From contig JACVCO010000012.1 in assembly GCA_016741995.1 (NCBI GenBank), forward strand, positions 1 through 64,000: DNA of 64,000 bases. The letters run 5' to 3'. Shown here in pieces: positions 2,399 to 54,719 of the stretch. The notes below the pieces were generated by a model that saw only the letters and a list, made by a program, of their open reading frames with translations, was not told the origin of the DNA and did no database searches. The position numbers and the translations under genes are program-made. Source of the stretch: Hydrogenophaga sp. (GTDB lineage Bacteria > Pseudomonadota > Gammaproteobacteria > Burkholderiales > Burkholderiaceae_C). Numbering within the stretch: position 1 is the first letter of the stretch; each line of letters begins with the position of its first letter.

Positions 2399-4729
<2,331 letters not shown>

Positions 4730-36004: not shown

Positions 36005-39811
<3,807 letters not shown>

Positions 39812-39837
<26 letters not shown>

Positions 39838-40642
39838 CTTCACGCCAGACGGCGTAGCCCGTGGGGTTGAGGTGCAGCCGGTCGGCGCCGAACAGATCGG
39901 CCTTGGGGCGCCCGTTGTCGTCGAGCATGGCGCTGTGCACGTCGATGAAATCCAGCTGCGGATGGCCATCCGAATAGGACTTCACCAAGCGGTTGGTGAG
40001 CTGGATCGCAGGCAGCAGCGACTCGCGCGCCGGGCTCGGCTTGATCGAAACGAAAGCGATACGCGTGTCGGGCGAGGCCTTGAGCACGTGCTGCACGAAG
40101 CGCTCGTAGCGCAGCAACACCTCGGCCGGTGAAGCGCCCTCGTCGAGATCGTTCTCGCCCGCATAAAGCACCACCTGCCGCGCCTGGTAAGGCAGCACGA
40201 GGCGGTCGATGAAGGCCACGCAATCGGCCAGGCGCGAACCGCCGAATCCGCGCTTGATGACCACCGGCTGCTGCTGGAACGCGGCCTCGAGGTTGTCCCA
40301 CAGGCGGATGGAGGAGCTGCCCACGAACAGCACGCCGCCGGGCTGCGGGCGCCCGCGTTTGTCCTGCTCGGCGAAGGCATCGAGGCTGGTGCGCCAGCGC
40401 AGCTCGGCCGCGGCCATGTTGTAAGCCACCGGGTTGGGCGACGGCCGGGCCACCGCGGGGGTGATCACCGCCGGCGGCAGCCTGACCAGCGGCGACGCGG
40501 CGCTGGAGGTGGCCGCCCCGGGCGGTGGCGCTGCCATGGAAAACTCGGTGCCCTGCGCCCAGGCCACGGGTGCCGACGGGGCCAGCGCGACGCCCAGCGC
40601 GCACACGGCCATCCACCGAACCATCGAAGAACGCTCAACCAT
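39812..40642 (-). CDS. exported SGNH/GDSL-type hydrolase
   Basis: A 276-residue esterase with a Sec signal peptide (hydrophobic stretch MAVCALGVALAPSAPVAWA, cleavage near AQG). SGNH blocks: VLFVGSSSIRLW (Ser nucleophile), RGFGGSRLADC (Gly), LYAGENDLDEG (Asn) and DRLHLNPTGYAVW (Asp/His). An Ala/Pro-rich linker follows the signal peptide. The substrate is unknown; such enzymes often remove acetyl or acyl groups from glycans, which fits the two OpgC-like acyltransferases next door. ATG 40642 overlaps the paiB stop; ATG 40624 is an alternative start directly before the signal peptide. Confidence 0.85.
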
Positions 40643-41297
40643 GCTGCGGGATTCCCAGATTCAAACGCCGCATCAAGCCTGCCAGGGCCCGCTCGTCCGG
40701 GGTGCCCTGCTCATAGGCGGCCAGCATCGCGGCGTGCGACTCGGGCCGGTGCTGATTGAGCTTGACCTTGCACGTGAGTTCCAGCACCCGCAGCTCGAAC
40801 GCATGGATTCCCTGCATCAACTTGTGCTGAAAGTCCTCGGGCAGGCCGCGCCACTGGTCCGCGTACGCCGGGTCGTGGTCGTGGATCAGGTGCTTCAGCA
40901 AACGGTCCTTGTCCTCGAAGCGCTCGATGAAGCGGGCCTCGACCCGGGCCTGCACCATGAGGTAGCTCCAGGTGGGCACGCGCGCCAGGTCGGGGTAGAC
41001 GCGAGGCGTCATGTAGGCGTGCGGGCCCTGGAACACCACCAGGGCCTGCGGCCGCGCGCGCAGGTGGCCCGCGTGCGGGTTCGGCCGGGCCACGTGGCCC
41101 AGCAGCGTGAAGCCGCCGTCTTCTTCGATCAGGTGCAGCGGCAGCGGCGTGACGAAGGGAAAGCCGCTGTCGTCGGCCGAGATCAGCTGCGCAAACGGGT
41201 GCGCGCGCATCAATTCGGGGGCGATCGACGGGTCTTTGGCGGCGAACTGAGGGGGCAGGTACACGGTCGGCGCGGGCGATACAGGCGGGGGTGCCAA
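40635..41297 (-). CDS. paiB: PaiB-type FMN-binding protein
   Basis: A 220-residue protein of the PaiB family, annotated as FMN-binding negative transcriptional regulator, with a split-barrel flavin fold. Typical segments: VYLPPQFAAKDPSIAPELMR, GFPFVTPLPLHLIEE, LGHVARPNPHAGHL, VFQGPHAYMTPRVYPD and VPTWSYLMVQARVEARFIE. A GTG at 41264 would give the more usual opening VYLPPQF and 209 residues; the ATG at 41297 is kept because both are possible. It overlaps the SGNH gene by 8 bases. Divergent from the membrane protein gene. Confidence 0.88.
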   Translation of the reverse strand: MAPPPVSPAPTVYLPPQFAAKDPSIAPELMRAHPFAQLISADDSGFPFVTPLPLHLIEEDGGFTLLGHVARPNPHAGHLRARPQALVVFQGPHAYMTPRVYPDLARVPTWSYLMVQARVEARFIERFEDKDRLLKHLIHDHDPAYADQWRGLPEDFQHKLMQGIHAFELRVLELTCKVKLNQHRPESHAAMLAAYEQGTPDERALAGLMRRLNLGIPQHG

Positions 41298-41373
41298 GCG
41301 TACTGCAAGCCCGCCGTCCGCAGGGCCACCGCCGTGGGCAAGGCGGTGCGATGATGCACATTCCCATCGCCTG

Positions 41374-42282
41374 GTGCTGCCCGTGTCCTGGCCATTTCTT
41401 CACCACCCCGCCTTCCAGAGCCTGCTGCTGCCGGCGCTGCTGTGCCTGCTGTGCACCGGCGCGCTGCGCTGGTGGCTCGGCCCGGCGCACCGCCCATGGA
41501 CGCCGCTGGGTGCCTCGCTCGGGCTGGCGCTGGCCATGCTGTGGTGGCCAGGCCTGGTCTGGCCCGCGGCCACGCAGGCGCAAAAGCTGCCATGGATCGT
41601 GCTCTTCGGCTTGCTGGCCGCGGCCGGTGCTCAGCGGCCCGCACGGGCCACCGCGCCTTCGCCGCGGCGCCCCTGGTTGCTGGCCACGATCGCCTGGGCC
41701 GCCAGCGCCGCGTGGTTGCTGGGCCTGGCAGCCCCACTGCCGCTGTTGACCGCCGTGGCCGGCGGGGCCGCTGTACTGGCGGCGTCGGCCTGGTCCACCC
41801 GCGCACCCAACGCCGAGCCCACGGCGGCGGCCGGCTCGGCCGCGGCCCTGGCGCTCGTCCTGCTCGGGCTGGCCGTTCTTGCGGTGGCTGCGGGCTCGCT
41901 GCTGCTGGCGCAACTGGCCTTGATGACCACCCTGGCCACCGCCGTGCTCGGGCTGTGGGCCTGGTGGTGGCCCCGCTCGGGCCCGCGCGTCACCGCCACT
42001 TCGCTCATGCCGCTGGGCATCGCGGCGCTCGCTCTGGCCACCTTGAACCTGGCCACGGGCCGGGTGCACGCGGGGGCGCTGGGCCTGCTGGCGGTGTCGC
42101 TCACCGCGCCGTGGTGGGCGGCTTCGGCACGCTGGACGGGGCGGTTCTGGCGCTGGCGGCCCGCCGTGGTGGCCCTGCTGGCGGCCCTGCCGGTGGCCGT
42201 GGCCCTGGGGTGGCAACTGGCCGCCCCCACCGAGGCCCCCACCGGCGACGCGGACGACCCTTACTACACGCCGCGCTGGTAA
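41374..42282 (+). CDS. hypothetical integral membrane protein
   Basis: A 302-residue very hydrophobic protein with about nine predicted helices, Ala/Leu/Trp-rich, no recognised domain. It opens with GTG at 41374 (another GTG in frame at 41383); a GATGATGC element lies about 12 bases upstream, like the one before the RibD-type gene. The cytosolic or periplasmic C-terminus is short and acidic (PTGDADDPYYTPRW). It lies 62 bases before the RibD-type gene in the same direction and may belong to that gene set. I cannot name a function. Confidence 0.65.
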   Translation: MLPVSWPFLHHPAFQSLLLPALLCLLCTGALRWWLGPAHRPWTPLGASLGLALAMLWWPGLVWPAATQAQKLPWIVLFGLLAAAGAQRPARATAPSPRRPWLLATIAWAASAAWLLGLAAPLPLLTAVAGGAAVLAASAWSTRAPNAEPTAAAGSAAALALVLLGLAVLAVAAGSLLLAQLALMTTLATAVLGLWAWWWPRSGPRVTATSLMPLGIAALALATLNLATGRVHAGALGLLAVSLTAPWWAASARWTGRFWRWRPAVVALLAALPVAVALGWQLAAPTEAPTGDADDPYYTPRW

Positions 42283-42344
42283 GCCCTGCCTCTGTAACGT
42301 TTTGGGGTAGGCGTTCGCCGCACCCGATGCGATGATGCCCCGCC

Positions 42345-43295
42345 ATGCGGCCATCGTCCGAACCTGCACGCGCCACCCTCCCTGCGGAACCCGCGGACCA
42401 CGCCCTCGCGGACGTGCCGGCCGACTGGCACGGGCTGTGGGCGCAGATCGTGGCAACGCGCGAAGGCCAGCCGGCCCCGGTGCGCCCGCGGGCCGCGATG
42501 CACTGGCAGCCCGATGCCGGCTGGTGCATCCAGGGCCCGGTGAGTGCGCGCAGCGCCGCCCTGTTCGACCTCTACAAGCCCCTGCTCGACGCGCGCTCGG
42601 CCGCCACGGCCACGCCCTGGGTGGTGGCACAGATGGGCCAGAGCCTGGATGGCTTCGTGGCAACCACCACGGGCGACTCCTACTACGTGAATGGGGCGCA
42701 CAGCCTGGTGCACCTGCACCGCCTGCGCGCGCTGTGCGACGCGGTGCTGGTGGGCGCCGGCACGGTGGCCATCGACAACCCGCAACTCACCACGCGCCGC
42801 GTGTATGGCGCCAACCCCGTGCGCGTGCTACTGGATCCGGACGCTCGGCTGGATGGCCATGCGCGCGCGTTGCACGACGGCCAGGCACTCACGCTGTGGG
42901 TGTGCGACGCGCTGCACGCCGCGACGGCGCGCAGCCGGTTGGGTGTCGCCACAGCGGCCGAGGTGTTGCCCGTTGAGGGCCTGCTCGACGGCATGAACGG
43001 GCACGAAGACCCCGGCGCCGGCGTTCACCGCGTGGTGGCGGCCCTGGCCGCGCGCGGCTTGCGCGTGCTGTTCGTCGAAGGCGGCGGGGTCACCGTGTCG
43101 CGCTTCTTTGCGGCCGGTGTGCTGCAGCGGCTGCACCTGTCGGTGGCACCGGTGCTGGTGGGCGAAGGCCGCCGCGGCCTGCGCGTGCCGGCGCGCGCGG
43201 TGATGGCCGACTGCCCCCGCCCGCCCGCGCGCATGGTGGTGCTGGGCGACGACATGCTCTGGGACCTGGATCTCGCGGCCGCGCCGCTGCGCTGA
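42345..43295 (+). CDS. RibD C-terminal-domain (DHFR-like) reductase
   Basis: A 316-residue protein whose residues about 85-310 form the RibD reductase domain, a dihydrofolate-reductase-like fold that reduces a ribosylated pyrimidine in riboflavin synthesis: WVVAQMGQSLDGFVATTTGDS, RLRALCDAVLVGAGTVAIDNPQLT, NPVRVLLDPDARLD, LRVLFVEGGGVTVSRFF and LHLSVAPVLVGEGRRGL. The deaminase half of RibD is absent. The first 85 residues are an unrelated, partly disordered region. As a stand-alone reductase near a PTPS homologue it may act on a pterin-type substrate. It ends 12 bases before the convergent methyltransferase gene. Confidence 0.82.
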   Translation: MRPSSEPARATLPAEPADHALADVPADWHGLWAQIVATREGQPAPVRPRAAMHWQPDAGWCIQGPVSARSAALFDLYKPLLDARSAATATPWVVAQMGQSLDGFVATTTGDSYYVNGAHSLVHLHRLRALCDAVLVGAGTVAIDNPQLTTRRVYGANPVRVLLDPDARLDGHARALHDGQALTLWVCDALHAATARSRLGVATAAEVLPVEGLLDGMNGHEDPGAGVHRVVAALAARGLRVLFVEGGGVTVSRFFAAGVLQRLHLSVAPVLVGEGRRGLRVPARAVMADCPRPPARMVVLGDDMLWDLDLAAAPLR

Positions 43296-43307
43296 ACGCC
43301 GCCCGGC

Positions 43308-44183
43308 TCACCGCGGCGGCAACGCCAGCAGATCGACATGCCCCACGCGCAGCGCGCCGTGGGCCGCTGCGTCGAGGCGCCGGTGCTGCCAGGCGGTGAC
43401 GGTGGCGGCACCGGCCGGGGCTTGTTCGATCGCCGCCCGCGCCATGCCATCGACCATCGCCCGCTGCATCGGCCCACTGTCCGCGGGAGACGACCCGGGG
43501 CCGATCCACCAGTCGCTGCGCGCAAGGGACACGCGCCAGCCCCGCTCGCGCAGGTGCTGCGCGAACACGAACGCCGCCTGCGGGCCCAGTGCGGGGCCCA
43601 GGCCCTTGTCGCGGCGCTGGTGCGCGGCGAACAGGTGTGCCACGCGCGCATCCCCGGCGTCCGCGGGTGTCCAGCGGTGGCGGCCATCCACATTGAGCGC
43701 AAACAGCAAGGCCGCGCGCGACGTGGCGGCCAGCGCCGCCAGCCGCTGCAGCCAGGCCGCGCCCGCGAGATCGAGCAAGGCCGAGGCCGTGATCAGGTGC
43801 GCCGCGCGCCAGGGCAAGGCGTCCAGATCGGTATCGATGGCGAGATCGGCGCGCTGCCGCCGCACCTCCACCGGCCCACCCGGGGTGTCCCGGCGCAGCC
43901 CGCCATCGGGCCGGCGGGTGAAGCCGGGCTGTGCGGACCAGCGGCGCAGCAGGCTGGCATCGCGATCCACCACCAGCCACTGCTGCGGCCCGCCCAGGCG
44001 CGGTGCCAGCCAGCGCAGGTTGGCGCCGGTGCCGCAGCCCAGGTCGATCACGCGCCAGGGGCCGTCCTCCGGGCGCCGGGCCTGCAGGCGGCGCACGAGC
44101 GCGGCCGATCGCTCGCGCGCGGCCGCATCGAACGGCTCGCGCAGGGCGAGCCAGTCGGCGCTGAAACGCGCGGCCGCCTTCAC
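43308..44183 (-). CDS. class I SAM-dependent methyltransferase
   Basis: A 291-residue methyltransferase. The SAM-binding motif I is VIDLGCGTGANLRWLAPRL (about residue 45), with an acidic loop LVVDRDAS, and a post-II region (LPWRAAHLITASALLDLAG). The C-terminal segment (ARSDWWIGPGSSPADSGPMQ) is specific to its subfamily. GTG at 44183 overlaps the glycosyltransferase stop (44180-44183), indicating translational coupling. Substrate unknown; in context it would methylate the product of the adjacent glycosyltransferase or pterin enzymes. Confidence 0.82.
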   Translation of the reverse strand: MKAAARFSADWLALREPFDAAARERSAALVRRLQARRPEDGPWRVIDLGCGTGANLRWLAPRLGGPQQWLVVDRDASLLRRWSAQPGFTRRPDGGLRRDTPGGPVEVRRQRADLAIDTDLDALPWRAAHLITASALLDLAGAAWLQRLAALAATSRAALLFALNVDGRHRWTPADAGDARVAHLFAAHQRRDKGLGPALGPQAAFVFAQHLRERGWRVSLARSDWWIGPGSSPADSGPMQRAMVDGMARAAIEQAPAGAATVTAWQHRRLDAAAHGALRVGHVDLLALPPR

Positions 44184-45262
44184 GCGGTGGCCTCGCCTGG
44201 TTGGGTGATGGCGGCCGCAAAGCGCGCCGCCTGCCCGGCCCACGACGGCAGGCGCAGCGCGGCGGCGCGCGCGCCCGCGGCAAGGCGCTCGCGCAAGCCG
44301 CCGTCCACGATCACCGTTGCCAGGGCTTCGCGCCAGGCAGCGGTGTCTGTGGCCGGCACCAGCATGCCGGCCTGTGGCGGCACGGTCTGCGCCAGTGCGC
44401 CGGCGCGGCTGGCCACCACGGGCAGGCCGTGCTGCAAGGCTTCGTTGATGACCATGCCGAAGCCTTCGTGGCGCGAGGCCAGCACGAACACGTCGGCCGC
44501 GGCATAGCGCGCCGCCAGGGCCGCGTCCACCAGTTCGCCGTGCCAGTGCACGCGGCCGGCGAGCGGGCCGGTGACGGTGCTGGCCTGCAAGCGCTGCGCC
44601 AGGGCCGCGTCGCGCGTGGTGCTGCCCACGCAGTGCAAGGTCCAGTCGAGATCGGTCAGGCCGGCCAGCGCGTGCAGCAGGCCGGCGTGGTTCTTGCGCG
44701 GCGTGAGCGTGGCCACGCACAGCAGTTGCACACCGTTGCCCGACCGTGCCGCCATGGGGCCGGGCGCGCCAGGGGCAATGGCGTCGGTGCCAGGCTCCAC
44801 CACCGCGATGCGCTCGCGGGGCACGCCGAGCGCGGCCACATCGGCCACCGTGCTCGGGCTGGTCACGATCACCCGCTGCGCAAATGCCAGCGCCTTGGTC
44901 TCGCGCTCGCGCAGGGTCTGCGCGCGCTGCGCGTCGAGCCCGGTTTCCAGGTGCAGCGGGTGGTGCACCAGCGCCACCCAGCGCAAGCGGTTTGCGTGCG
45001 GCGCCACCACGTCGTCGAGCACACCGAAAGCCAGGCCATCGGCGACCACGCAGCACCCATCGGGCAGCCCGGCGATGCGCTGCCGCGCTTCGGCCAGCGT
45101 GGCGTCGCCCGGCCACGGCCAGGTGCCATCGATGCGCAGCACGGACACCGCCCAGCCGCGCGCACGCAGGGATTCGGCCAGGCGCCGGTCGTACACGTAG
45201 CCGCCGGTGGGCGTGTGCAGATCGCCCGGAACCAGCAGCACGCAAGCCGGGGCGGTGTGCAT
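44180..45262 (-). CDS. glycosyltransferase family 4 protein
   Basis: A 360-residue GT-B glycosyltransferase. The N-terminal acceptor domain begins with CVLLVPGDLHTPTGGYVYDR, the C-terminal donor domain has LLCVATLTPRKNHAGLL and the E(x7)E motif RHEGFGMVINEALQHGLPVVAS typical of GT4 (retaining). Donor sugar unknown. No membrane segment is predicted. It lies 20 bases downstream of the PTPS homologue and overlaps the methyltransferase gene by 4 bases. Confidence 0.88.
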   Translation of the reverse strand: MHTAPACVLLVPGDLHTPTGGYVYDRRLAESLRARGWAVSVLRIDGTWPWPGDATLAEARQRIAGLPDGCCVVADGLAFGVLDDVVAPHANRLRWVALVHHPLHLETGLDAQRAQTLRERETKALAFAQRVIVTSPSTVADVAALGVPRERIAVVEPGTDAIAPGAPGPMAARSGNGVQLLCVATLTPRKNHAGLLHALAGLTDLDWTLHCVGSTTRDAALAQRLQASTVTGPLAGRVHWHGELVDAALAARYAAADVFVLASRHEGFGMVINEALQHGLPVVASRAGALAQTVPPQAGMLVPATDTAAWREALATVIVDGGLRERLAAGARAAALRLPSWAGQAARFAAAITQPGEATA

Positions 45263-45282
45263 GGTCGGCCGCGCCTTGCGGC

Positions 45283-45705
45283 TCAGGTGCCGAGCCCGGC
45301 TTCGTAGGCAGCCGAGGCCACGTGCGATTCCTGCAGCGACACGCGCAGGGCCGTGAGCCCACCCGTGGCACTGCCGGGCACCGCGTGCGGCCCCAGCGCG
45401 CCCGCCACCACGCGCTGCTCGATGCGTTCGAACAGCGCGTGCGCGAGGAACTCGGTGGTGGTGTTGCGGCCCGCGAACTCGGGCAGCTCGTCGAGGTTGC
45501 GGAAGTTCAGCCGGGCCAGTTCCTCGCGCAGCACCTGCGTGGCCAGCCCGATGTCAACCACCACGCCATCGGGGTCGAGCGCCGGCCGGCGCAGCTCCAG
45601 GTCGACCACGTAGGTGGCGCCGTGCAGGGCCTGTGCGGGGCCGAACACCGCCCCGCGAAAGCTGTGGGCGATCATGAAATGGTCTCGAACGGTGACGGTG
45701 AACAT
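45283..45705 (-). CDS. divergent PTPS/QueD-family protein (altered metal site)
   Basis: A 140-residue 6-pyruvoyl-tetrahydropterin-synthase fold protein: [55 protein letters not shown], and [15 protein letters not shown] with the conserved Glu. Normal PTPS/QueD binds zinc through AAH and HGH and has a catalytic Cys before HGH; here HGH is HGA (one zinc His lost) and there is no Cys in FGPAQALHG. The product is thus unlikely to be the classic QueD reaction. ATG 45705 gives the family start (MFTVTV). It is 7 bases after the MDR gene and 20 before the glycosyltransferase. Confidence 0.82.
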
Positions 45706-45712
45706 GGTGGAT

Positions 45713-46699
45713 TCAGGCGGGGTAGTCGATGCGTTGGCACAGGGTGTCGGTGTCGCCACCGGCCAGGCGCTGCAGCACTCGGGGCAGTTCGTCAAAGGTG
45801 GCGTGGTGGGTGATCAGGGCATCGAGAGCCGGGTCGGTGAGCATCAACAGCGCCAGCGCCAGCCGCCGCTGGTGGCTCCAGCGCGCGCGCTGCGCCCCGG
45901 CCACCTGCCCCACCTGCGAACTGCGCAGCGTGAGGCGCTGTGCGTGAAAGCCCTCGCCCAGCGGCACCTCCACAGCCCGCGTACCGTACCAGCTCAGCTC
46001 CAGCACGGTGGCTTCGAAGCCGGCCAGGCGCAGCGCGGTGGCCAGCCCGGCGCCCTGCCCGCTCGCGTGGATCACGAGGTCGGCCCCGGTGCGGGCCTGC
46101 GCCGGCAAGGCGAAGCCGGCGCCCAGCGCCTGCGCGACGCCGGCGCGTGTGGCCTGCGTGTCCACCACCTGCACATCGCAACCCGGCACACGCGCGGCCA
46201 GCCACGCCACCAGCAGGCCCAGCGGGCCGGCGCCCACCACGCTCACCCGGTCGCCCACGCGCGGCGGTGCATCCCACAACGCGTTGATGGCGGTTTCCAG
46301 GTACGCCGCCAGCACCGCACGTGCGGGGGGCACGCCCGCGGGCAAGGGCACCACCGCCGACGCCGGCACCTGGTAGTGCGTCTGGTGCGGGTGCAGGCAG
46401 AACACAGGCCGCTCAAGCAGCTCGGGCGGCCCCGCCTCGACCACGCCCACGTTCACGTAGCCGTACTTCACGGGCGCCGGGAACTCGCCGGCCTGGAAAG
46501 GCGCGCGCATGCGCTGCAGTTCGCTCGCGGGCACCTCGCCGCGGAACACCAGGGCTTCGGTGCCGCGGCTCACGCCGCTGTGCAGGCTGCGCACGCGCAC
46601 CTCGCCCTCGCGCAACGGGGGCAGCGTCTCGGTGCGGATCTCGGCCCGCGACGGGCCGACCACCCAGCAGGCACGGGCATTCGGTTGGGGGGATTGCAT
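45713..46699 (-). CDS. MDR-family dehydrogenase lacking catalytic-zinc cysteine
   Basis: A 328-residue medium-chain dehydrogenase/reductase-like protein. The N-terminal catalytic domain has [20 protein letters not shown] in place of the usual catalytic-zinc CxxSDxH loop, so the active site differs from zinc alcohol dehydrogenases. The Rossmann domain is normal ([21 protein letters not shown] then [10 protein letters not shown]). The motif SRGTE resembles BchC-like and related dehydrogenases. First gene of the minus-strand operon MDR-PTPS-GT4-methyltransferase, divergent from the CDP-alcohol phosphatidyltransferase; the 66-base gap between the ATGs must hold both promoters. Confidence 0.85.
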
Positions 46700-46765
46700 G
46701 GAAACGGCTTCGCGGTGAACCTCGCGACTGTCCGGCCATCTTAGAGGCCGCCACACCGCGCCGTC

Positions 46766-47560
46766 ATGAGCCCTGCCCTTGCACCCCCACCGCCCTCGGC
46801 CATCGCCCATGCGCAGGCGCTGCGCCGCGACGCCGCCCGGGCGCTGGCGGCCATGGCGCTGTTGCTGGGGCTGGCCGCGGGCGCGATGGGCGCCACCGGC
46901 CTCGGGGCGGATTTCGCGGCCAAGGCCCTGGCGGTGTACGCGGTCGGGGCTGCGCTGGTGTGGCGCGGTCTGGCGGGCGGCGCACACCCCCACGCCCGCT
47001 TCGGCGCGGCCAACCACATCACGCTCGCGCGCCTGGCGGGCATGGCCGCGGTGGCCGCGCTGCTGGGTGAAGCGGTGCCCGCCGCACCGCCTGCGGCCCG
47101 GGCCTTCGGCGGCTGGGTGCTGATCGTGGCGGCAACGCTGATCGCGGTGCTGGACGCGGCCGACGGCGCCCTGGCGCGCCGCCAGGGTCTGGCCAGCCGC
47201 TTCGGCGCGCGCTTCGACATGGAAACCGACGCGGCCTTCACGCTGGTGCTCAGCGCCCTGGTGTGGCAAGCCGGCCAGGCGGGCGCCTGGGTGCTGGCCT
47301 CGGGCCTGATGCGCTACGCCTTCGTGGCCGCCGCGTGGGCGCTGCCGTGGCTGGGCGGCGCGCTGCCGCCGAGTTGGCGGCGCCAGGCCGTGTGCGTGGT
47401 GCAGATCACCGCGCTCATCGTCTGCCTCGGGCCCATCGTGCCGCCCGCGCTGGCCACCGTCATCGCGGCCATCAGCCTGCTGCTGCTGAGTGCCTCGTTC
47501 GCCATCGACATCCACCACCTGGCGCGCCAGCGCGCCACCTTCCGGGAGAGCCGCGCATGA
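46766..47560 (+). CDS. CDP-alcohol phosphatidyltransferase family protein
   Basis: A 264-residue membrane enzyme with about six helices and the complete family motif in VLDAADGALARRQGLASRFG followed by ARFDMETD, that is D(x2)DG(x2)AR(x8)G(x3)D(x3)D, which binds two metal ions and transfers a phosphoalcohol from a CDP-linked donor. NHITLARLAGM before it is typical. Substrate alcohol unknown. Its stop overlaps the yceI start (ATGA, 47557-47560). It faces the MDR gene head to head. Confidence 0.88.
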   Translation: MSPALAPPPPSAIAHAQALRRDAARALAAMALLLGLAAGAMGATGLGADFAAKALAVYAVGAALVWRGLAGGAHPHARFGAANHITLARLAGMAAVAALLGEAVPAAPPAARAFGGWVLIVAATLIAVLDAADGALARRQGLASRFGARFDMETDAAFTLVLSALVWQAGQAGAWVLASGLMRYAFVAAAWALPWLGGALPPSWRRQAVCVVQITALIVCLGPIVPPALATVIAAISLLLLSASFAIDIHHLARQRATFRESRA

Positions 47561-48156
47561 AACCCCCGCCCACCCTGACCGCGTTCGTGCTCGCCGCATG
47601 GCTGGTCGCGCCGGCCGCGCAAGCCCAGGCCCAACGCTACGAGATCGACCCCGACCACCTCTCGCTCGGTTTTCTGGTTGACCACGTGGGCTACGCCAAG
47701 GTGCTGGGCATGTTCCGCTCGGCGCGCGGCAGCTACCGTTTCGACGAAGCCAGTGGTGCGTTGTCGGACGTGCGCATCGAGGTCGACACGGCGAGCGTGT
47801 TCAGCAACCAGCGCAAGCGCGACGACCACCTCAAAGGGCCGGACTTCCTCAACAGCGGCGAATTCCCGCGCATGGTGTTCACCGCCAGCAGCGCACGCCG
47901 CACGGCCGATCGCCAGTACGAGATCACGGGCCAGCTCGAGCTGCTGGGCAAGACACAACCGCTGACGCTGCAGGCCACCTGGAACAAGAGCGCCGATTCC
48001 CCCGTGGCCGGCTTCGGCCGCAAGCCGTATGTGATGGGCGTGTCCGCGCGCGGCGGCTTCAAGCGCAGCGCCTACGGCATGAACTACGCGGTGGCCAACG
48101 GCTGGGTTGGAGACACGGTCGATCTGATCATCGAGTTCGAGGCGGTGCGCCAGTGA
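47557..48156 (+). CDS. YceI family periplasmic protein
   Basis: A 199-residue exported beta-barrel lipocalin-like protein. Signal peptide (LTAFVLAAWLVAPAAQAQA) is followed by the YceI domain: YEIDPDHLSLGFLVDHVGYA, VLGMFRSARGSYRFDE, VFSNQRKRDDHLKGPDFLNS and a late SARGGFKRSAYGM segment. YceI proteins bind polyprenoid or amphiphilic lipids, so here it may carry a lipid made by the neighbouring genes. Overlaps the gene before and the gene after by 4 bases each. Confidence 0.88.
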   Translation: MKPPPTLTAFVLAAWLVAPAAQAQAQRYEIDPDHLSLGFLVDHVGYAKVLGMFRSARGSYRFDEASGALSDVRIEVDTASVFSNQRKRDDHLKGPDFLNSGEFPRMVFTASSARRTADRQYEITGQLELLGKTQPLTLQATWNKSADSPVAGFGRKPYVMGVSARGGFKRSAYGMNYAVANGWVGDTVDLIIEFEAVRQ

Positions 48157-49706
48157 GTGCGGCCGGCTGGCTGCGCGCGGGCCTGGCCTTCTTCGTTCTC
48201 AACACCCTGCTCACGTTCGAGAACCGCTGGCCGGGCCTGGGTGTGCGGTTCATGCCGCGGCTTTCGTTCGAGCTCTGTCTGGGCGTGGCCCTGCTCGCGG
48301 GCTGGGTGGCGTGGCGCGGCGTGCTGTCGGCGCGCGCCGCCACCGCCCTGGCCGCGGGCTTCGTGGCCCTGGTGGCCGTGCGCTACGCCGACGTGACCGC
48401 CCCCGCGGTGATGGGGCGGCCCGTGAACGCCTACTGGGACGGCCGCCACGCGGTCGAGCTGATCCAGGTGGTGGGGCAATCCTGGTCGTGGTGGTATGTG
48501 GCGGGCGCTGCGGCGGCACTGCTGCTGGGCATGGTCTTGCTGCTGCTGGTGGCGCGCCGGGCCATCGCCACGCTGGCCAGCGCCCTGGCCTGGCCCGCGC
48601 TGCGGCGCGGCAGCGTGCTGGCCGCGGGCGCCCTGGCGCTGTGCTTCGCGGCCTACGTGCCCGATCGGCGCGACACGCGCTGGTTCTTCTCGTTGCCGCT
48701 CACGCCCACGGTGCTGCACCAGGGCCTGCTGCTGTCGCAAGCGATGTGGCCCGAGCAAGCGGACGCCGCACTCGGCCCGGGCCCGGCCTTCGACACCGAC
48801 CTGCACGCCCTGCACACACCGCAAGGCCCGGCCGACGTGGTGCTGCTGTTCGCCGAGTCCTACGGCGCCGTCACGCTCGACGAACCCGCGCTGTCGGCCG
48901 CGCTCGCGCCCGCGCGCGACCGGCTGCAGGCCGCCATCGAGGCCAGCGGGCGCCAGGTGGTGTCGGCCCGCGTGCGCGCGGCCACCTTCGGCGGCGCGTC
49001 GTGGCTGTCGCACGCCAGCCTGCTCTCGGGCGTCGCGACCACCGACCCGATCCGCCACGACCTGCTGCTCACCAGCGACAAACCCACCCTGGTGCAGCAC
49101 TTCGCCCGCCACGGCTACCGCACCGTGGGCTGGATGCCGGGCATCAAGCGCCCCTGGCCCGAGGGCGCGTTCTACGGCTTCGAGCGCTTCGCCGACGACG
49201 CCCGCCTGGGCTACAGCGGCCCCGATGTCGGCTACTGGCGCATCCCCGACCATGCGGCGATGGATCTGTTGCAGTCGCAGGAGCTGGCCGCCCCACCCGC
49301 GACATCCGCCACGCGCCGGCCGGTGTTCGCCGTGTTCCCTACCGTGAGCACGCACGCGCCTTTTCATCCGCTGCCCGCGTTGCCAGGCGAGCCGGCCGGC
49401 AGCGGCTACACCGACAGCCTGCGCTACCAGTTCCACTGGCTGGCGCGCTACCTGGAGGGCACGGCCTCGAAGCGCCTGGTGCTGATCGTGGTGGGCGACC
49501 ACCAGCCGCCCGGCGGGCTCGCGGGCCGTGATGCGCCCTGGGATGTGCCGGTGCACGTGATCGCCAACGACCCGGCGCTGTTGCACCGCTTCCAGGCCCA
49601 GGGCTTCACGCCCGGCCTTCGGCCCGAGGGGCCGGCGCTGGGCGCCATGCACGAACTCACGCGGGTGTTGCTGCTGGCGTTCGACGGCCGCGCCGAGCCG
49701 CACTGA
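48153..49706 (+). CDS. sulfatase/phosphoethanolamine-transferase-superfamily membrane protein
   Basis: A 517-residue protein with about five N-terminal helices (residues 5-185) and a periplasmic alkaline-phosphatase-superfamily domain (about 220-510), like LtaS/EptA/OpgE-type phosphoglycerol or phosphoethanolamine transferases. Visible: DVVLLFAESYGAVTLDE (first metal acid), FGGASWLSHASLLSGV (position of the usual Thr/Ser nucleophile), YRTVGWMPGIKR, FPTVSTHAPFHPLP and IVVGDHQPPGG (metal Asp-His). GTG 48153 overlaps the YceI stop. It probably adds a head group to a lipid or glycan; substrate unknown. It ends 3 bases before the convergent FkbM gene. Confidence 0.85.
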   Translation: MSAAGWLRAGLAFFVLNTLLTFENRWPGLGVRFMPRLSFELCLGVALLAGWVAWRGVLSARAATALAAGFVALVAVRYADVTAPAVMGRPVNAYWDGRHAVELIQVVGQSWSWWYVAGAAAALLLGMVLLLLVARRAIATLASALAWPALRRGSVLAAGALALCFAAYVPDRRDTRWFFSLPLTPTVLHQGLLLSQAMWPEQADAALGPGPAFDTDLHALHTPQGPADVVLLFAESYGAVTLDEPALSAALAPARDRLQAAIEASGRQVVSARVRAATFGGASWLSHASLLSGVATTDPIRHDLLLTSDKPTLVQHFARHGYRTVGWMPGIKRPWPEGAFYGFERFADDARLGYSGPDVGYWRIPDHAAMDLLQSQELAAPPATSATRRPVFAVFPTVSTHAPFHPLPALPGEPAGSGYTDSLRYQFHWLARYLEGTASKRLVLIVVGDHQPPGGLAGRDAPWDVPVHVIANDPALLHRFQAQGFTPGLRPEGPALGAMHELTRVLLLAFDGRAEPH

Positions 49707-49709
49707 CAC

Positions 49710-50462
49710 TCAGTTCACCAACCACGCGTGCACGTCGCCGGAAGGCGCATCGGGCGGCAAGGCCTGCAGCCAGGCGCGCATGGCCTCGGCGGATTCGCCC
49801 TCGGGCTGCAACAGGCGCAGCCGCTCGCCGAGCGAGACGGCGTAGCGGTAGCGCCCCGGCCCGGCGAGCTGTTCCAGGCGATCGATGCAAGCGAGCGCCA
49901 CGTCATGCACCGCGGGCACGAACTCGAAGGACAGTGCGGGCAGCGGCTGGCTCAGGCCCAGCAGCACCTCCCACTCGAAACCCTCGACATCGATCTTCAC
50001 GAAGTCGGGCCGGCCGTGCTCGGCAATCAAGGCGTCCAGCGTGGTGACGGTCACCAGTGGCCCCGGCTGCCACCGCACACCCTCGAAAGATGCCGAGGCA
50101 CCGGCGCGCTGCACGAAGTCGGCGGACAAGGTGGCGACGGTGGGGTTGCGCTTGCTGGCCAACAAGCGCACCTGCCCCGGCACGCGGCCCAGGGCCTGCT
50201 CGAGCACCCGCACCTGCGGATCGCGCGCGAATTCCCGCCGCAGCAAGCGAGCGAACGCAACCTGCGGCTCCACCGCGACCACGCGCGCGCCCAGCGCCCG
50301 GAACGCCGCCACACGGTTGCCCGCGTGCGCGCCCACGTCGAAGGCCATCCCACCGGCCGGCACGAAGCGGCAGTAGAAGCGCCGCAGTTGCGCGCCACGC
50401 CAGGGGATGGCGCGATAGATCAGCAGCGAGCGCCAAAGGCCAAGGGTGGCGGGCCAGTCCAT
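49710..50462 (-). CDS. FkbM family methyltransferase
   Basis: A 250-residue SAM-dependent methyltransferase. Motif I is in MAFDVGAHAGNRVAAFRALG, with the acidic loop VVAVEPQVAF; the FkbM hallmark FVKIDVEGFEWEVLLGL and TLDALIAEHGRPD follow. FkbM enzymes usually O-methylate sugars or polyketides. ATG 50462 (MDWPATLG) gives the family length; longer readings upstream have no similarity. Three bases separate its stop from the sulfatase-like gene. It could modify the same glycolipid product, but it is transcribed apart from it. Confidence 0.85.
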   Translation of the reverse strand: MDWPATLGLWRSLLIYRAIPWRGAQLRRFYCRFVPAGGMAFDVGAHAGNRVAAFRALGARVVAVEPQVAFARLLRREFARDPQVRVLEQALGRVPGQVRLLASKRNPTVATLSADFVQRAGASASFEGVRWQPGPLVTVTTLDALIAEHGRPDFVKIDVEGFEWEVLLGLSQPLPALSFEFVPAVHDVALACIDRLEQLAGPGRYRYAVSLGERLRLLQPEGESAEAMRAWLQALPPDAPSGDVHAWLVN

Positions 50463-50624
50463 GGGTGGGTCTCCATCACGTGCACTGTATCGGCGGACGC
50501 GATTGACCCCACGAAAACCCGTGGCGAGAATGCTGCCGGGATGAGGAGAGGCACTGCCGGCAGCGCATCCGCTGCCGGGGCGGCCAGGTCTGCGACCACG
50601 CGGGTCCCGCACTGGGAGGGTCAG

Positions 50625-53072
50625 ATGTGTCCTGTGGATGAACCCAAAGCCCGTCGCTTCGGGTGGTGCAGGGTCTGGGCGCTGTTGCTGGCTGGTTGGC
50701 TGCTCAGCGGTTGCGAGCTCGAAGGCTTTCGCCTGCCGGCGGGCTTCCCGGTGAGCGACGGCGGCGCGGTCGAGCCGATCAACGACCGCACCACCTTTTT
50801 GTACGAAGACGGCCCGCTTCAGTTGTTCAGCCGCTTCGTGCGCGTCGCGCCACGGCGCTACGCCTGGGAGATGCTCACGGGTGACGACGCTGAGCGCATG
50901 TGGACCGTGACCGATGCCTTCTTCGTGCCGGCCGAATCGGGTTGGTACCGGCTGCATTGGCGCGATCTCTCCAACGGCCTCCAGGGCATGGAGCTGGTCC
51001 GCTTCGATGCGGGTCGGATGCTGGTGGCCGAGGCCCGCAACGCCCCGGGGGTGGCGGGCGCGGCGAACGCGGCCGGGGTGTCGGTACGCAAACTGCGGGA
51101 CACAGCCAGCCTGGAAGGGGTCGACCCCGCCCGGTTAGACCGTTTCGCTCGCGAGCTAAGCCGTGCGCCCCTGGCGGCCAAGCCGCACCGGCGCGTCCCG
51201 TCCATGCCGGCGGTTGCACGCGACAAGGCCATGGCCAATGCTGTCCAACACGTCTCGGCCATCGACCAGCCTCTGGTTCGCGACGCGGCGCTGACCCAGC
51301 GCATGCTGGCCTACTTCCGCCTCCTGCACGACGAAGGTGCCGGCCTCGGCAGCTATGGCTACGGACGTTTCGCCACCAACGGCTGGGGCATGGATGCAGA
51401 CCCCGCCCTGGCTCGCCGCCTGGCCCAGGCCGCTGTGGACCGGGGGGTTTCGCGGGGACACACTTCCCTGGGGGTGATGGCGTATCAGGGTGCTGGCGAG
51501 CCCGCCGATCCGGCCAAGGCCCTGCGCCACTTGAACATCGGTGCCGAAGCAGGCGATGCACGCGCATTCCATGTGCTTGGGTTGATGTACATGAACGGCG
51601 TGGGCGTGGCCAAGGACCCAGCGCGCGCCGTGCAATGGTTCAACCAGGCGGCCGAGCAAGGCCTCACCGCGTCTCGCGTGGCCTTGGCTGACCAGTTGAT
51701 CCTGGGCGAACACCTGCCGAAAGACGATGCGCGGGCCGTGGCGCTGCTCGACCAGGCCGTTGCGGCAACGTCCCCCATGGCCTACCAGTCGCGTGCATGG
51801 CTCCATGAGCAAGGACGGGGCGGCCCGGCAAACCCCAAGGAAGCGGTGCGCCTGTATGCGCTGGCAGCGCAGGACGGTATGTTGTTCGCGCAGTGGCGCC
51901 TGGGGGAGCTCCTGCTGGCGGGATCGGGCGTGGCGGCAGACCGGGCTGCTGGCCTGCGCTGGCTCGAAAGCGCTGCGGCCGGTGGTCAAGCACAGGCAAC
52001 CGAGCGGCTGGCCCAGTTGCGCCAGGGCGGCACGCCAGCCGTGCCCGCCCCGCAAGCCAGCGGCACGGACCCCAGCCTCGCCGCCATGGATCGCTTCATC
52101 GAAGAGGAGCGCAAAAGGCTCCTGGAGCGCGAGCGCCAGGCCAAAGCCAACATCGCGCGCATCGACGACGAGTTGGAACAACAGTACGCGGACCGGGACA
52201 AGCTGGTGCGCCGTTTGCGCGAATCCCTCGCACCCGAGATCCAGCGCCTGGACAGGTTGCGCGGCTCCGGCGCTGAATTCCAGCGCCAGGTGACCAACCT
52301 GGACAACCTGCTCAACGATCAGCCCACCCCTGCCCAGCGGCGCGACATCAACGATTTGCGAACCCGGACCCTCGCCTCGATCAGCGAAGTCAATCGCCTG
52401 GTGGCGCAAGGCGTCGGCGAACACCCGCACGCACTGGCCTGGCGGCTGCCCAACGGGCAACTGGTGCTGCCGCGCCCCGATGGGCGCCTGGTCGTCGCGG
52501 GCAAGGATGTGCCGGCCCAGCGTGTCGATACAGCCACCCTGCCCCGTCCCGGTGATCACTTCATCGAAGACCGGCACCGGATGGCCATGGTCAACTACGA
52601 AGACTCCTGGACCGGCGTCACAAGTCGCAACGCGCGCATCGCGGCCCTGGGGCGCACGCTCGACGAGCTGGTCGGCGGATCACACAGTTGCCAGACGCGC
52701 GTGATGGCGTCGATCACCACCACCAACACCGGGCCGCTGTCGGGCCCGTCCGTCACGGTGGACATCAACAAGGTGATGCGGCTACGCGAACGCATGTCCT
52801 ACGGGCAAGGGCAAACGCTCGAGGACAAGGAAGAGTTTGTGCCGCTGGCTCGCGTCGACAGGCTCGAGCCCCGGGCGGCCTCGGCCGACCGCAGCTGTCA
52901 CGCCATCCTGCTGCATTGCACCCAGGAGCGACGCGCCTGCGTCGCCAGGAACCAGTACCGGGCAGACGGCGGTATTGGCGAGATCCTGATGCTGCGCTTC
53001 GCCGACGAGTCGCGCGCCCAACGCGCCTTGCCGGTGCTGCGCGAGCTGCTGGAACTGGCCCGGCGACCCTGA
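50625..53072 (+). CDS. large Sel1-repeat lipoprotein with coiled coil and unknown C-terminal domain
   Basis: An 815-residue lipoprotein (lipobox LLSGC, Cys about 30). The N-terminal 250 residues have no recognised fold. Residues about 262-455 contain about five Sel1-like repeats (SLGVMAYQGAGEPADPAKAL, HVLGLMYMNGVGVAKDPARA, WRLGELLLAGSGVAADRAAG). Residues 484-547 form a charged coiled coil (FIEEERKRLLERERQAKANI, DDELEQQYADRDKLVRRLRE). The last 250 residues contain paired Cys (SHSCQTR, RSCHAILLHCTQERRAC) likely in disulfides and no family I know. GGGAGGG precedes the ATG closely. Probably a surface or periplasmic scaffold. Confidence 0.75.
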   Translation: MCPVDEPKARRFGWCRVWALLLAGWLLSGCELEGFRLPAGFPVSDGGAVEPINDRTTFLYEDGPLQLFSRFVRVAPRRYAWEMLTGDDAERMWTVTDAFFVPAESGWYRLHWRDLSNGLQGMELVRFDAGRMLVAEARNAPGVAGAANAAGVSVRKLRDTASLEGVDPARLDRFARELSRAPLAAKPHRRVPSMPAVARDKAMANAVQHVSAIDQPLVRDAALTQRMLAYFRLLHDEGAGLGSYGYGRFATNGWGMDADPALARRLAQAAVDRGVSRGHTSLGVMAYQGAGEPADPAKALRHLNIGAEAGDARAFHVLGLMYMNGVGVAKDPARAVQWFNQAAEQGLTASRVALADQLILGEHLPKDDARAVALLDQAVAATSPMAYQSRAWLHEQGRGGPANPKEAVRLYALAAQDGMLFAQWRLGELLLAGSGVAADRAAGLRWLESAAAGGQAQATERLAQLRQGGTPAVPAPQASGTDPSLAAMDRFIEEERKRLLERERQAKANIARIDDELEQQYADRDKLVRRLRESLAPEIQRLDRLRGSGAEFQRQVTNLDNLLNDQPTPAQRRDINDLRTRTLASISEVNRLVAQGVGEHPHALAWRLPNGQLVLPRPDGRLVVAGKDVPAQRVDTATLPRPGDHFIEDRHRMAMVNYEDSWTGVTSRNARIAALGRTLDELVGGSHSCQTRVMASITTTNTGPLSGPSVTVDINKVMRLRERMSYGQGQTLEDKEEFVPLARVDRLEPRAASADRSCHAILLHCTQERRACVARNQYRADGGIGEILMLRFADESRAQRALPVLRELLELARRP

Positions 53073-53102: not shown

Positions 53103-54719
53103 CTATTCCCACTCGATCGTCGCTGGCGGCTTGCTGCTCACGTCGTAGGTCACGCGGTTGATGCCGCGCACTTCGTTGATGATGCGGCCCGACACGCGCT
53201 TGAGCAGGCTGTAGGGCAGCTCGGCCCAGTCGGCGGTCATGAAGTCGCTGGTCTGCACGGCGCGCAGGGCGACCACGTAGTCGTAGGTGCGGCCGTCGCC
53301 CATCACGCCCACGCTCTTCACGGGCAGGAACACGGTGAAGGCCTGGCTGGTCAGGTCGTACCAGCTTTTGCCGCTGTTCGGCTCGATCGTGGAGCGCAGT
53401 TCCTCGATGAAGATCGCGTCGGCCCGGCGCAGCAGGTCGGCGTAGTCTTTTTTCACCTCGCCCAGGATGCGCACGCCCAGGCCCGGGCCCGGGAAGGGGT
53501 GGCGGTAGACCATGTCGTGCGGCAGGCCCAGGGCCACGCCCAGTTCGCGAACCTCGTCCTTGAACAGGTCGCGCAGCGGCTCCAGCAGTTTCAGGCCCAG
53601 TTGCTCGGGCAGGCCACCCACGTTGTGGTGGCTCTTGATGGTGACGGCCTTCTTGCTCTTGGCGCCGCCAGACTCAATCACGTCGGGGTAAATTGTTCCT
53701 TGTGCCAACCACTTGGCACCTTTTGTTGAAGCACCACTTGAAGTGAGTTTGGCTGCCTCGGCCTTGAAAACCTCGACGAATTCGCGGCCGATGATCTTGC
53801 GTTTGGCCTCCGGGTCGCTCACCCCGGCCAGGTGGCCGAGGAACTGGTCGGCCGCGTCCACGCGGATGACCTTGGCGTGCAGCTTGCCCACGAACATGTC
53901 CATCACCATGTCGCCCTCGTTCAGGCGCAGCAGGCCGTGGTCCACGAACACGCAGGTGAGCTGGTCGCCGATGGCGCGGTGGATCAGCGCAGCGGCCACC
54001 GACGAATCCACGCCGCCCGACAGGCCCAGGATCACCTCCTCGTCGCCCACCTGTTCCCGGATCTTCTCGACCGCCTCGGCGATGTGGTCGCGCATCACCC
54101 AGTCGGGGCTGGTGCCGCAGATCTGCAGCACGAAGCGCTCGAGCAGCGCCCGGCCCTGCACGGTGTGCGTGACCTCGGGGTGGAACTGCACGGCGTAGAA
54201 GCGGCGCGCCTCGTCGGCCATGCCGGCGATGGGGCAGCTGTCGGTGCTGGCCATGAGCTTGAAGCCCGGCGGCAGCTCGGTCACCTTGTCGCCGTGGCTC
54301 ATCCACACCTTGAGCATGCCGTGGCCTTCCGGGGTGTGGAAGTCGGCGATGTCTTTCAGCAGCGCGGTGTGACCGCGGGCGCGCACCTCGGCGTAACCGA
54401 ACTCGCGCGTGTGCGAGCCCTCGACCTTGCCGCCCAGTTGCTGCGCCATGGTCTGCATGCCGTAGCAGATGCCCAGCACCGGGATGCCCAGTTCGTAGAC
54501 CGCGTCGGGCGCCTTGTCGTCCACCTCGTACACGCTGGCGTGGCTGCCCGAGAGCACCACGCCCTTCAGGCGCCCATCGGCCGCAAACTCGCGCACCCAC
54601 TCGCTGCTCACGTCGCAGGGGTGCACCTCGCAGTACACGTGCGCTTCGCGGATGCGGCGCGCGATGAGCTGGGTGACCTGGGAGCCGAAATCGAGAATGA
54701 GGATCTTGTCGTGCTGCAT
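53103..54719 (-). CDS. guaA: GMP synthase (glutamine-hydrolysing)
   Basis: A 538-residue GuaA converting XMP, ATP and glutamine to GMP. The N-terminal class I glutamine amidotransferase has [17 protein letters not shown] (catalytic Cys) and [12 protein letters not shown]; the ATP-pyrophosphatase domain has [16 protein letters not shown]; the C-terminal dimer domain ends KPPATIEWE. Two short inserts relative to E. coli are seen, around [17 protein letters not shown] and [11 protein letters not shown]. The segment 53672-53755 uses A/T-ending codons unlike the rest of the gene and contains a small hairpin (53702-53719). It lies downstream of guaB after a terminator-like hairpin. Confidence 0.96.
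53702..53719. other. inverted repeat in AT-rich codon patch of guaA
   Basis: GTGCCAA, CCAC, TTGGCAC: a 7-bp perfect stem with 4-base loop, inside a stretch of about 28 guaA codons (53672-53755) that use A- or T-ending codons rare elsewhere in the window. On the plus strand it is followed by CTTTT. Confidence 0.6.

Follow-up and report, generated by a model that had tools for sequence, protein, structure and literature searches.

The closest known counterpart of the PTPS-like protein encoded in this locus is its ortholog SCO6650 of Streptomyces coelicolor, a PTPS homologue labelled "uncharacterized" in its PDB entry (3d7j) and described through the structure of the single protein. A related Streptomyces cluster holds genes for a CDP-alcohol enzyme, an MDR dehydrogenase, a PTPS homologue, a GT4 glycosyltransferase, a methyltransferase (MT), a creatininase and GTP cyclohydrolase II (GCHII). 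SCO6650 itself was reportedly found, in its 2008 structure paper, to contain no zinc and to have no PTPS activity. Two further described systems share enzyme families with the locus or with fuller versions of it elsewhere: head-group transfer from phosphatidylglycerol by LtaS, GacH or MdoB, and the early riboflavin pathway with GCHII, a BrbF-type formamidase and a RibD-type reductase. According to the BrbF study (PMC9478397), BrbF belongs to the creatininase family and acts as a formamidase on a GCHII-type intermediate.

We searched the window (the whole 64,000-nucleotide stretch of Hydrogenophaga DNA analyzed here) with Pfam and NCBIfam models. Two back-to-back operons occupy positions 41374..49706, and all the enzymes named by the first-pass annotation were found in their places, with 66 bases between the operons:

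41374..42282, + strand: uncharacterized membrane protein, without Pfam or NCBIfam match and absent from the first-pass annotation
42345..43295, + strand: RibD_C-type pyrimidine reductase (PF01872, 110 bits, residues 91-277)
43308..44183, - strand: class I SAM-dependent methyltransferase, MT (23.8 bits, below the Pfam cutoff of 27; fold backed by a structure model)
44180..45262, - strand: GT4 glycosyltransferase (PF13692, 89 bits)
45283..45705, - strand: PTPS-like T-fold protein (PF01242, 77 bits)
45713..46699, - strand: MDR dehydrogenase (ADH_zinc_N, 26.4 bits, below the cutoff of 31.8)
46700..46765, no strand: divergent intergenic region of 66 bases between the two operons
46766..47560, + strand: CDP-alcohol phosphatidyltransferase (CDP-OH_P_transf, PF01066, 46.8 bits)
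47557..48156, + strand: YceI-family protein (PF04264, 126 bits)
48153..49706, + strand: sulfatase-like membrane protein resembling phospho-head-group transferases of the LtaS/GacH type (20.6 bits, below the cutoff of 25; predicted fold agrees)
49710..50957, - strand: FkbM-family methyltransferase with an uncertain start (PF05050, 57 bits), just beyond 41374..49706

Neighboring genes are 12 (reductase/MT), 20 (GT4/PTPS), 7 (PTPS/MDR) and 66 bases (MDR/CDP-alcohol) apart, or overlap by 4 bases (CDP-alcohol/YceI, YceI/LtaS-like, and MT, which has a GTG start, with the GT4 stop). At gathering thresholds, Rfam gave no match in positions 38000-52000, and no riboswitch was found in the window stretch or in seven loci.

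We then evaluated the conservation of the gene set in the 80 loci around the best 80 of at least 584 confirmed PTPS-like matches, a sample that therefore leans to the relatives of the window. Genes were called with a purpose-made codon-score caller, and the HMMs that scored the loci were trained on these 80 loci themselves, with thresholds of our own; several loci are short, and counts over 80 are lower bounds. The loci span Pseudomonadota, Actinomycetota and MAGs labelled Gemmatimonadetes and Acidobacteria, a match occurs in 12 of 35 genomes of the genus besides the own genome of the window, and records from Streptomyces fungicidicus and Peteryoungia agree with the gene set. In a search that scored at most six candidates per genome at E <= 1e-20, the CDP-alcohol clade was present in 15 of the 27 PTPS-bearing genomes against 1.3 expected (p 1e-16) and, counted by genera, in 10 against 1.2 (p 1e-9), both values being uncorrected for relatedness. 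The gene set is a real conserved system, and in several phyla its two operons go together. A lack of co-occurrence in relatives, one of the outcomes that the first-pass annotation had named as fatal to its proposal, was looked for, and the result did not refute the proposal. Its statement that no known pathway holds this set agrees with our literature search, which found no description of it. The membrane protein at 41374..42282, whose family occurs in 9 of the best 80 loci, is an accessory of the Burkholderiales versions.

The PTPS-like protein is 61% identical to SCO6650 over almost its full length, and both carry an HGA motif. For the family alignment we took the PTPS zinc site to consist of three histidines (H, HxH) and assigned the presumed positions of the catalytic Cys and Asp-His. 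The HGHxY motif has become HGAT in 100 of 100 aligned members (one of the 101 rows is gapped); the first and second zinc-site histidines are retained, and the third ligand is lost. The catalytic Cys position is occupied by Ala in 100/100 members and by Ser in L016, the sole ordinary homologue aligned. Asn stands at the catalytic Asp position in 87 of 101 rows (Asp in two), and the catalytic His position holds Tyr, Phe, Leu or Met in all 101. A Glu that we take to be the pterin-binding residue is kept in 101/101 rows. Because a zinc ligand and the catalytic residues are lost, the homologue, judged by its alignment, cannot be a normal PTPS or QueD. This changes the earlier reading of the divergent PTPS homologue; the protein may hold the ring through its conserved Glu.

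The MDR dehydrogenase, whose top NCBIfam profile is BchC (49 bits, far under that model's cutoff), appears to be zinc-less, in that our reading of its alignment reveals no recognizable ligands at the positions we presume to bind zinc. Of the 398 genomes sampled in the phylum, its gene and the PTPS-like gene occur in an identical set of 27. Among the best 80 of the at least 584 matches, the MDR gene lies directly 5' of the PTPS gene on the same strand in 67 loci and the GT4 gene directly 3' in 72, an arrangement therefore far from chance. The MDR is an invariant, inseparable partner of the PTPS-like protein.

Of the other ring-directed enzymes, GT4 is present in 75, MT in 71, the RibD-type reductase in 49, GCHII in 24 and creatininase in 16 of these best 80 loci. 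The reductase has RibD_C as its only Pfam domain, the deaminase domain being absent, and reaches 89 bits against the RibD equivalog, whose cutoff is 156. Its genome contains four RibD_C matches, the best of which, a 389-aa frame on contig 15, is presumably the housekeeping RibD. The predicted MT fold matches many small-molecule methyltransferases and points to no single substrate. The window cluster contains no dedicated GCHII, creatininase or flippase. A single GCHII match, RibBA-like, was found in its genome, which is incomplete, and each of the 14 genomes searched in the genus has a single strong match. An additional weak one, present in 2/8 PTPS-bearing and 2/6 PTPS-lacking genomes, shows no link to PTPS, and we rejected the idea that the genus encodes a dedicated GCHII at another site. 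Two creatininases of the same genome (298 and 281 bits) have unrelated surroundings; the cluster creatininases score 320-424 in 14 of 16 cases and 179 and 128 in the other two, below the own-genome pair, and family membership was shown for one cluster member.

In the lipid half, the CDP-alcohol enzyme (49 of the best 80 loci) forms its own clade with a complete predicted catalytic motif: the residues of DxxDGxxAR-x8-GxxxDxxxD, which we take to be the catalytic motif of the CDP-alcohol phosphatidyltransferase superfamily, are invariant in 17/17 aligned members. Two CDP-alcohol subfamily models match the enzyme, both far under their cutoffs. YceI occurs in 21 of the best 80 loci. The LtaS-like protein combines N-terminal membrane helices with an alkaline-phosphatase-like ectodomain. 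In its alignment, for which the metal-ligand and nucleophile positions are our own assignment, E235, D449 and H450 are invariant in 8/8 sequences, and the likely nucleophile region GGxSW has an invariant Ser, not a proven Thr. No NCBIfam model matches the protein, and a sequence search of solved structures gave no match for the sulfatase-like family. Fuller sets in other members add an LPG-synthase-TM flippase. The FkbM methyltransferase, a recurrent accessory, is found in 12 of the best 80 loci; it adjoins the CDP-alcohol gene in Peteryoungia and lies between the reductase and the YceI/CDP-alcohol genes in genome G075.

We also found versions in which the PTPS-like gene is missing. In 11 of 12 PTPS-less, Rhodobacterales-type loci, the CDP-alcohol gene is accompanied by GT4 and an NMT1/THI5-type importer, a type seen in 0 of the 64 PTPS loci of at least 15 kb (from the best 80 of at least 584); the twelfth, L185, lacks GT4, has an importer of the sugar type and is labelled among the non-importer rows of the CDP-alcohol tree. 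PTPS absence refers to the plasmid record alone for plasmid-borne examples and to a full search for four whole genomes; of the 16 plasmid records with a CDP-alcohol match, 7 also have a PTPS-like gene, and 8 of the remaining 9 were read (all but NZ_CP022191). The GT4s of the importer versions are nested in the same tree as the biosynthetic ones, so that GT4 is common to both. One binding protein of this kind, a member of the Pfam family NMT1, is similar to the pyrimidine-binding 3ix1. Uptake thus appears to replace synthesis in these loci; that a pyrimidine is imported is suggested at the family level only, because some importers of the NMT1 family take up other compounds.

We tentatively propose, at somewhat less than even confidence, a conserved and previously undescribed envelope pathway in which a ring compound is made, glycosylated, coupled to a lipid and tailored. 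We infer each reaction, the order of the steps, the lipid coupling and its replacement by import. The ring probably starts from the GCHII (riboflavin-type) pyrimidine and not from dihydroneopterin triphosphate, since the fuller sets elsewhere hold GCHII, a creatininase-family enzyme and the LPG-synthase-TM flippase. This aminopyrimidine would come from housekeeping RibBA in the window organism and, elsewhere, from the dedicated GCHII, sometimes with a creatininase-family formamidase. The deaminase-less RibD-type enzyme would reduce its ribosyl chain, the MDR and metal-free PTPS-like pair would remodel the ring, and MT and GT4 would methylate and glycosylate it. The CDP-alcohol phosphatidyltransferase could then couple the ring-glycoside to a phospholipid, which would be flipped (by the LPG-synthase-TM flippase in other members), YceI may carry or protect the product, and the LtaS/GacH-like enzyme may tailor the phospho-head group or pass it on. 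Some Rhodobacterales would not make the ring compound but take it up through the NMT1/THI5-type ABC transporter.

The main rival explanation, rather unlikely in our estimate, is that the ring compound, or another polyol, sits on a phospholipid as a donor only and that the LtaS/MdoB-like enzyme moves it to a periplasmic glucan or polymer that comes from an MdoH-like glycosyltransferase and is modified by OpgC as well. The predicted fold of this enzyme is nearest to phosphoglycerol transferases, an MdoH-like glycosyltransferase gene adjoins the cluster in 7 of the 12 PTPS-only genomes and in Methylosinus, and two OpgC genes are present in the window (37478-39834). OpgC is also found outside the close relatives of the window, which led us to give this explanation more weight: besides four Hydrogenophaga, it occurs in L159 and in the Kiloniellales MAG L058, where the OpgC gene and an MdoH-like gene overlap by 4 bases and adjoin the CDP-alcohol gene. 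However, MdoH-like genes are found in only 6 and OpgC in only 5 of the best 80 of the at least 584 matches, and to our knowledge YceI and the LPG-synthase-TM flippase have no part in glucan synthesis.

Less probable still, we consider it unlikely that the locus combines two separate functions, with MDR, PTPS, GT4, MT and reductase producing a soluble modified pterin or pyrimidine (cofactor, pigment or signal) beside an unrelated phospholipid-modifying unit. The CDP-alcohol clade is missing from 12 of the 27 PTPS-bearing genomes; therefore, the lipid half is not obligatory. Fusions, scored as continuous reading frames in deposited contigs, are confined to each half (GT4-MT in three loci and creatininase-reductase in one; CDP-alcohol-LtaS-like in five and CDP-alcohol-YceI in one, L058), and no fusion across the two halves was found among the loci. 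On the other hand, the 15 co-occurrences against 1.3 expected speak for a link, and the two halves exchange partners where they are split: in G075, 65 kb separate reductase-FkbM-YceI-CDP-alcohol from MDR-PTPS-GT4-MT, and in G395, CDP-alcohol-LtaS-like-flippase-GT4 lies apart from GCHII-MDR-PTPS-MT-reductase. The 11 importer loci also pair the CDP-alcohol enzyme with GT4. In Actinomadura, GCHII, CDP-alcohol, MDR, PTPS, GT4, MT and flippase genes form one single-strand run. The earlier claim that both operons make up one pathway is thus supported by co-occurrence and needs correction in that the lipid half is optional.

It is quite improbable that the ring is a flavin- or pterin-like, lipid-anchored membrane electron carrier served by YceI and cytochrome b561. 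A prokaryotic cytochrome b561 gene adjoins the CDP-alcohol gene in 9 of the 12 PTPS-less loci (not in L155, L185 and L187) and lies between reductase and MT in L165, L166, L168 and L169, and the YceI count given above fits a carrier; yet just 2 of the main loci, the best 80 among at least 584, contain cytochrome b561, and none was called in the window cluster. Finally, it is very improbable that the locus is a side cluster of queuosine, folate or riboflavin synthesis whose lipid neighbors are misannotated: in NCBI records the PTPS homologue is named 6-carboxytetrahydropterin synthase, and the cyclohydrolase is named RibA, but the score of the PTPS homologue, 37.8 bits against the NCBIfam QueD equivalog (cutoff, 89.25), and the missing zinc ligand and catalytic residues rule out QueD or folate membership, and the other rib genes lie elsewhere in the genome.

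Returning to the envelope pathway, a bolder form of it, which we rate as possible but on balance doubtful, would be a new class of membrane lipids in several phyla. Their head group would be a pterin- or pyrimidine-like ring with sugar and methyl substituents, made from GTP by the metal-free PTPS homologue and MDR, or acquired as a common good where only importer and lipid-coupling genes are kept; it might be a redox carrier in the envelope that cytochrome b561 and YceI serve. A pterin is one candidate for the ring, and its coupling to a lipid is putative. If true, the pathway would give a biochemical context to SCO6650, whose structure is solved and function unassigned, would add a pathway to 27 of the 398 sampled genomes of the phylum of the window and to actinomycetes, and would connect ring chemistry of the vitamin type with the lipids of the membrane or with other molecules of the envelope. 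Judging by the importer versions, bacteria may exchange the ring compound. With its few, closely packed genes, the set is open to direct testing by deletion and lipidomics.

Compared with known systems, the window protein has the Pfam PTPS domain and the pterin-binding Glu in common with the QueD/PTPS T-fold enzymes, whereas the zinc site and catalytic residues are altered in the PTPS-like members aligned. The fuller clusters use the same enzyme families as the early riboflavin pathway (for BrbF, PMC9478397), but no deaminase, lumazine synthase or riboflavin synthase was seen among the conserved cluster families. As in the LtaS/GacH/MdoB systems, a CDP-alcohol enzyme is paired with an LtaS/GacH-like enzyme, whose gene comes next or is fused to its own; unlike in those systems, the CDP-alcohol enzyme of the window reaches no named subfamily cutoff, and the two genes are tied to genes for a ring compound.

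The first-pass annotation's gene list and spacing for the cluster at 41374 to 49706 were borne out by Pfam, NCBIfam and measurement of the gaps. From left to right, the cluster comprises:

Leftmost gene: membrane protein without a name
+ strand: reductase with RibD_C only, right of the membrane protein
− strand: methyltransferase, GT4 glycosyltransferase, PTPS-like protein and zinc-less dehydrogenase (MDR), transcribed from MDR to methyltransferase
Divergent from that operon: CDP-alcohol phosphatidyltransferase, YceI and a sulfatase-superfamily (LtaS-like) membrane protein
Opposite strand to the sulfatase-superfamily gene, 3 bases past it: FkbM methyltransferase

Pfam scores were under the curated cut-off for the names methyltransferase, MDR and sulfatase; models lend support to the first and third. 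Below, the MDR-to-methyltransferase genes with the reductase are termed the ring half and the divergent genes, with a flippase where present, the lipid half.

We looked into conservation among 60 genomes, our own and 59 close to it. The PTPS-like gene was found in 12/35 other genomes of the genus and in 1/24 of the order outside the genus, one further match being an ordinary PTPS kept out of these counts. Genus members retain MDR, GT4, methyltransferase and the divergent CDP-alcohol gene wherever the 3.4-kb stretch extends that far, and the order member outside the genus has a reductase upstream of MDR instead of the CDP-alcohol gene. Scanning one genome per species, we recovered at least 584 relatives, the best 80 of which (L019 to L098) cover Beta-, Gamma- and Alphaproteobacteria, Actinomycetota, and MAGs labelled Gemmatimonadetes and Acidobacteria. 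In these best 80, profiles built from the same loci gave counts that are lower bounds, since several stretches are short: GT4 (75), MDR and methyltransferase (71 each), reductase and CDP-alcohol enzyme (49 each), LtaS-like protein and flippase (25 each), GTP cyclohydrolase II (GCHII, 24), YceI (21), creatininase (16), FkbM (12), the window-type membrane protein (9), an MdoH-like glycosyltransferase (6) and cytochrome b561 (2). MDR lies directly 5' of PTPS in 67 of them, and GT4 directly 3' in 72.

We then evaluated co-occurrence in 398 genomes drawn evenly from the window's phylum. The PTPS-like protein was present in 27, always with at least 143 bits (the next match, at 61 bits, is presumably an ordinary PTPS/QueD protein), and the MDR clade was found in the identical 27 genomes. 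The CDP-alcohol clade was present in 19 genomes, 15 of them PTPS-bearing, versus 1.3 expected (Fisher p 1e-16; by genus, 10 versus 1.2, p 1e-9; relatedness not corrected in either), and its 6 families all fall among the 12 PTPS families. The two matches lie at most about 2.2 kb apart in 13 of the 15 genomes; they are 65 kb apart in G075 and on different contigs in G395. Among plasmid records with the PTPS-like gene, 7/20 also have a CDP-alcohol match.

In G075, the CDP-alcohol gene is grouped with YceI, FkbM and reductase genes, and MDR-PTPS-GT4-methyltransferase with an LtaS-like gene. In G395, GT4 is grouped with CDP-alcohol, LtaS-like and flippase genes, and GCHII-MDR-PTPS-methyltransferase-reductase lie at a separate place without GT4. 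Both halves stand together in Actinomadura, there on a single strand (GCHII, CDP-alcohol enzyme, MDR, PTPS, GT4, methyltransferase, flippase), and in two annotated records, a Streptomyces fungicidicus plasmid (CDP-alcohol, MDR, PTPS, GT4, methyltransferase, creatininase, GCHII) and Peteryoungia desertarenae (sulfatase, flippase, FkbM, CDP-alcohol, GCHII, MDR, PTPS, GT4, methyltransferase, RibD, cytochrome b). The two-family reading frames found were GT4-methyltransferase (3 loci), creatininase-reductase (1), CDP-alcohol-LtaS-like (5) and CDP-alcohol-YceI (1), none of which bridges the two halves.

Four genomes (G239, G264, G294 and G332) have the CDP-alcohol clade and no PTPS-like gene, and importer genes adjoin their GT4. 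Likewise, 7 of 8 PTPS-less Rhodobacterales plasmid loci (Alloyangia, Paracoccus sp. AK26, P. alcaliphilus, Paracoccus sp. TOH, Rhodobacter sp. CZR27, Roseicitreum and Tateyamaria) carry a binding protein, an ATPase and a fused permease adjoining GT4; that of P. alcaliphilus is without the LtaS-like gene, and the flippase is missing from 4 importer loci. The binding protein matches Pfam NMT1/THI5 (131 bits), its closest solved structures being 4nmy and 3ix1 (formyl-aminomethylpyrimidine-binding protein). This importer type was found in 0/64 PTPS loci that span 15 kb or more, among the best 80 of at least 584. Phylogenetic trees place both GT4 and the CDP-alcohol enzyme of importer loci within their families, together with the proteins of PTPS-bearing G395; GT4 also groups with Palleronia, next to Peteryoungia, both PTPS-bearing, in a tree whose bootstrap had not converged. 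Most simply, importer loci would take up the ring compound in place of making it. In the eighth plasmid locus, from Qingshengfaniella, the NMT1-type importer was not found; this CDP-alcohol/flippase/LtaS-like cluster also lacks PTPS and GT4 and has a sugar-type ABC importer instead. Cytochrome b561 adjoins the CDP-alcohol gene in 9/12 PTPS-less loci, a recurrence that hints at a redox role.

Judging each step by family membership, we propose that a GTP-derived aminopyrimidine, reduced without deamination, would be acted on by the MDR/PTPS-like pair, then methylated and glycosylated, and afterwards coupled to lipid and exported. We infer most strongly that MDR is functionally coupled to PTPS, and GT4 to both halves, and most weakly what the ring is and that it is attached to lipid. 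A PfkB/ribokinase-type kinase adjoins the MDR-PTPS-methyltransferase-RibD genes on plasmids of Palleronia and Rhodobacteraceae SC52, and an inositol-monophosphatase-like gene adjoins GT4 on the former. A GMP synthase (53103 to 54719, − strand) lies about 3.4 kb from the window cluster, probably by coincidence; guanine nucleotides are the presumed precursor.

The acceptor may instead be a periplasmic glucan, or depend on lineage, in view of two recurrent neighbors. The MdoH-like gene adjoins the cluster in 7/12 PTPS-bearing genomes without the CDP-alcohol enzyme, and in Methylosinus. OpgC, which modifies periplasmic glucans and thus fits glucan decoration, occurs in 5 of the best 80 of at least 584 loci, in the window and in a further locus, L159:

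Window, 37478 to 38605 and 38659 to 39834, + strand: tandem OpgC-family pair near the cluster (222 and 268 bits)
L058 (one of the 5), 3113 to 4390: OpgC, overlapping an MdoH-like gene, both next to the CDP-alcohol-YceI gene
L159, 3842 to 4993: OpgC

Between the window's OpgC genes and the cluster lie a GDSL hydrolase and an FMN_bind_2 protein (39815 to 41297, − strand), whose families stay nearby in genus relatives.

We found no published account of this gene set in the full-text literature, which leaves subscription journals mostly outside, so that an earlier description is possible. For SCO6655, the sole match in that literature is one line of a gene table (PMC2853524). The PTPS-like protein has an ortholog with a solved structure, SCO6650 from Streptomyces coelicolor. 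A Streptomyces anthocyanicus plasmid encodes a PTPS-like protein that is more distant (47% identity; L180, 8001 to 8426), beside cupin and MEKHLA proteins, the cluster genes being absent. The 2008 paper on the SCO6650 structure reportedly found neither zinc nor PTPS activity. We aligned 101 PTPS-like members with one ordinary homologue, at positions whose roles we take to be as follows. The third zinc ligand is Ala in 100/100 members aligned there; the catalytic Cys is Ala in 100/100 (Ser in the ordinary homologue); the catalytic Asp is replaced by Asn in 87 of 101 and retained in 2; the catalytic His gives way to Tyr, Phe, Leu or Met in 101/101; and the substrate glutamate is Glu in 101/101. 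This pattern points to a strongly constrained protein, yet one for which the known PTPS/QueD chemistry is unlikely.
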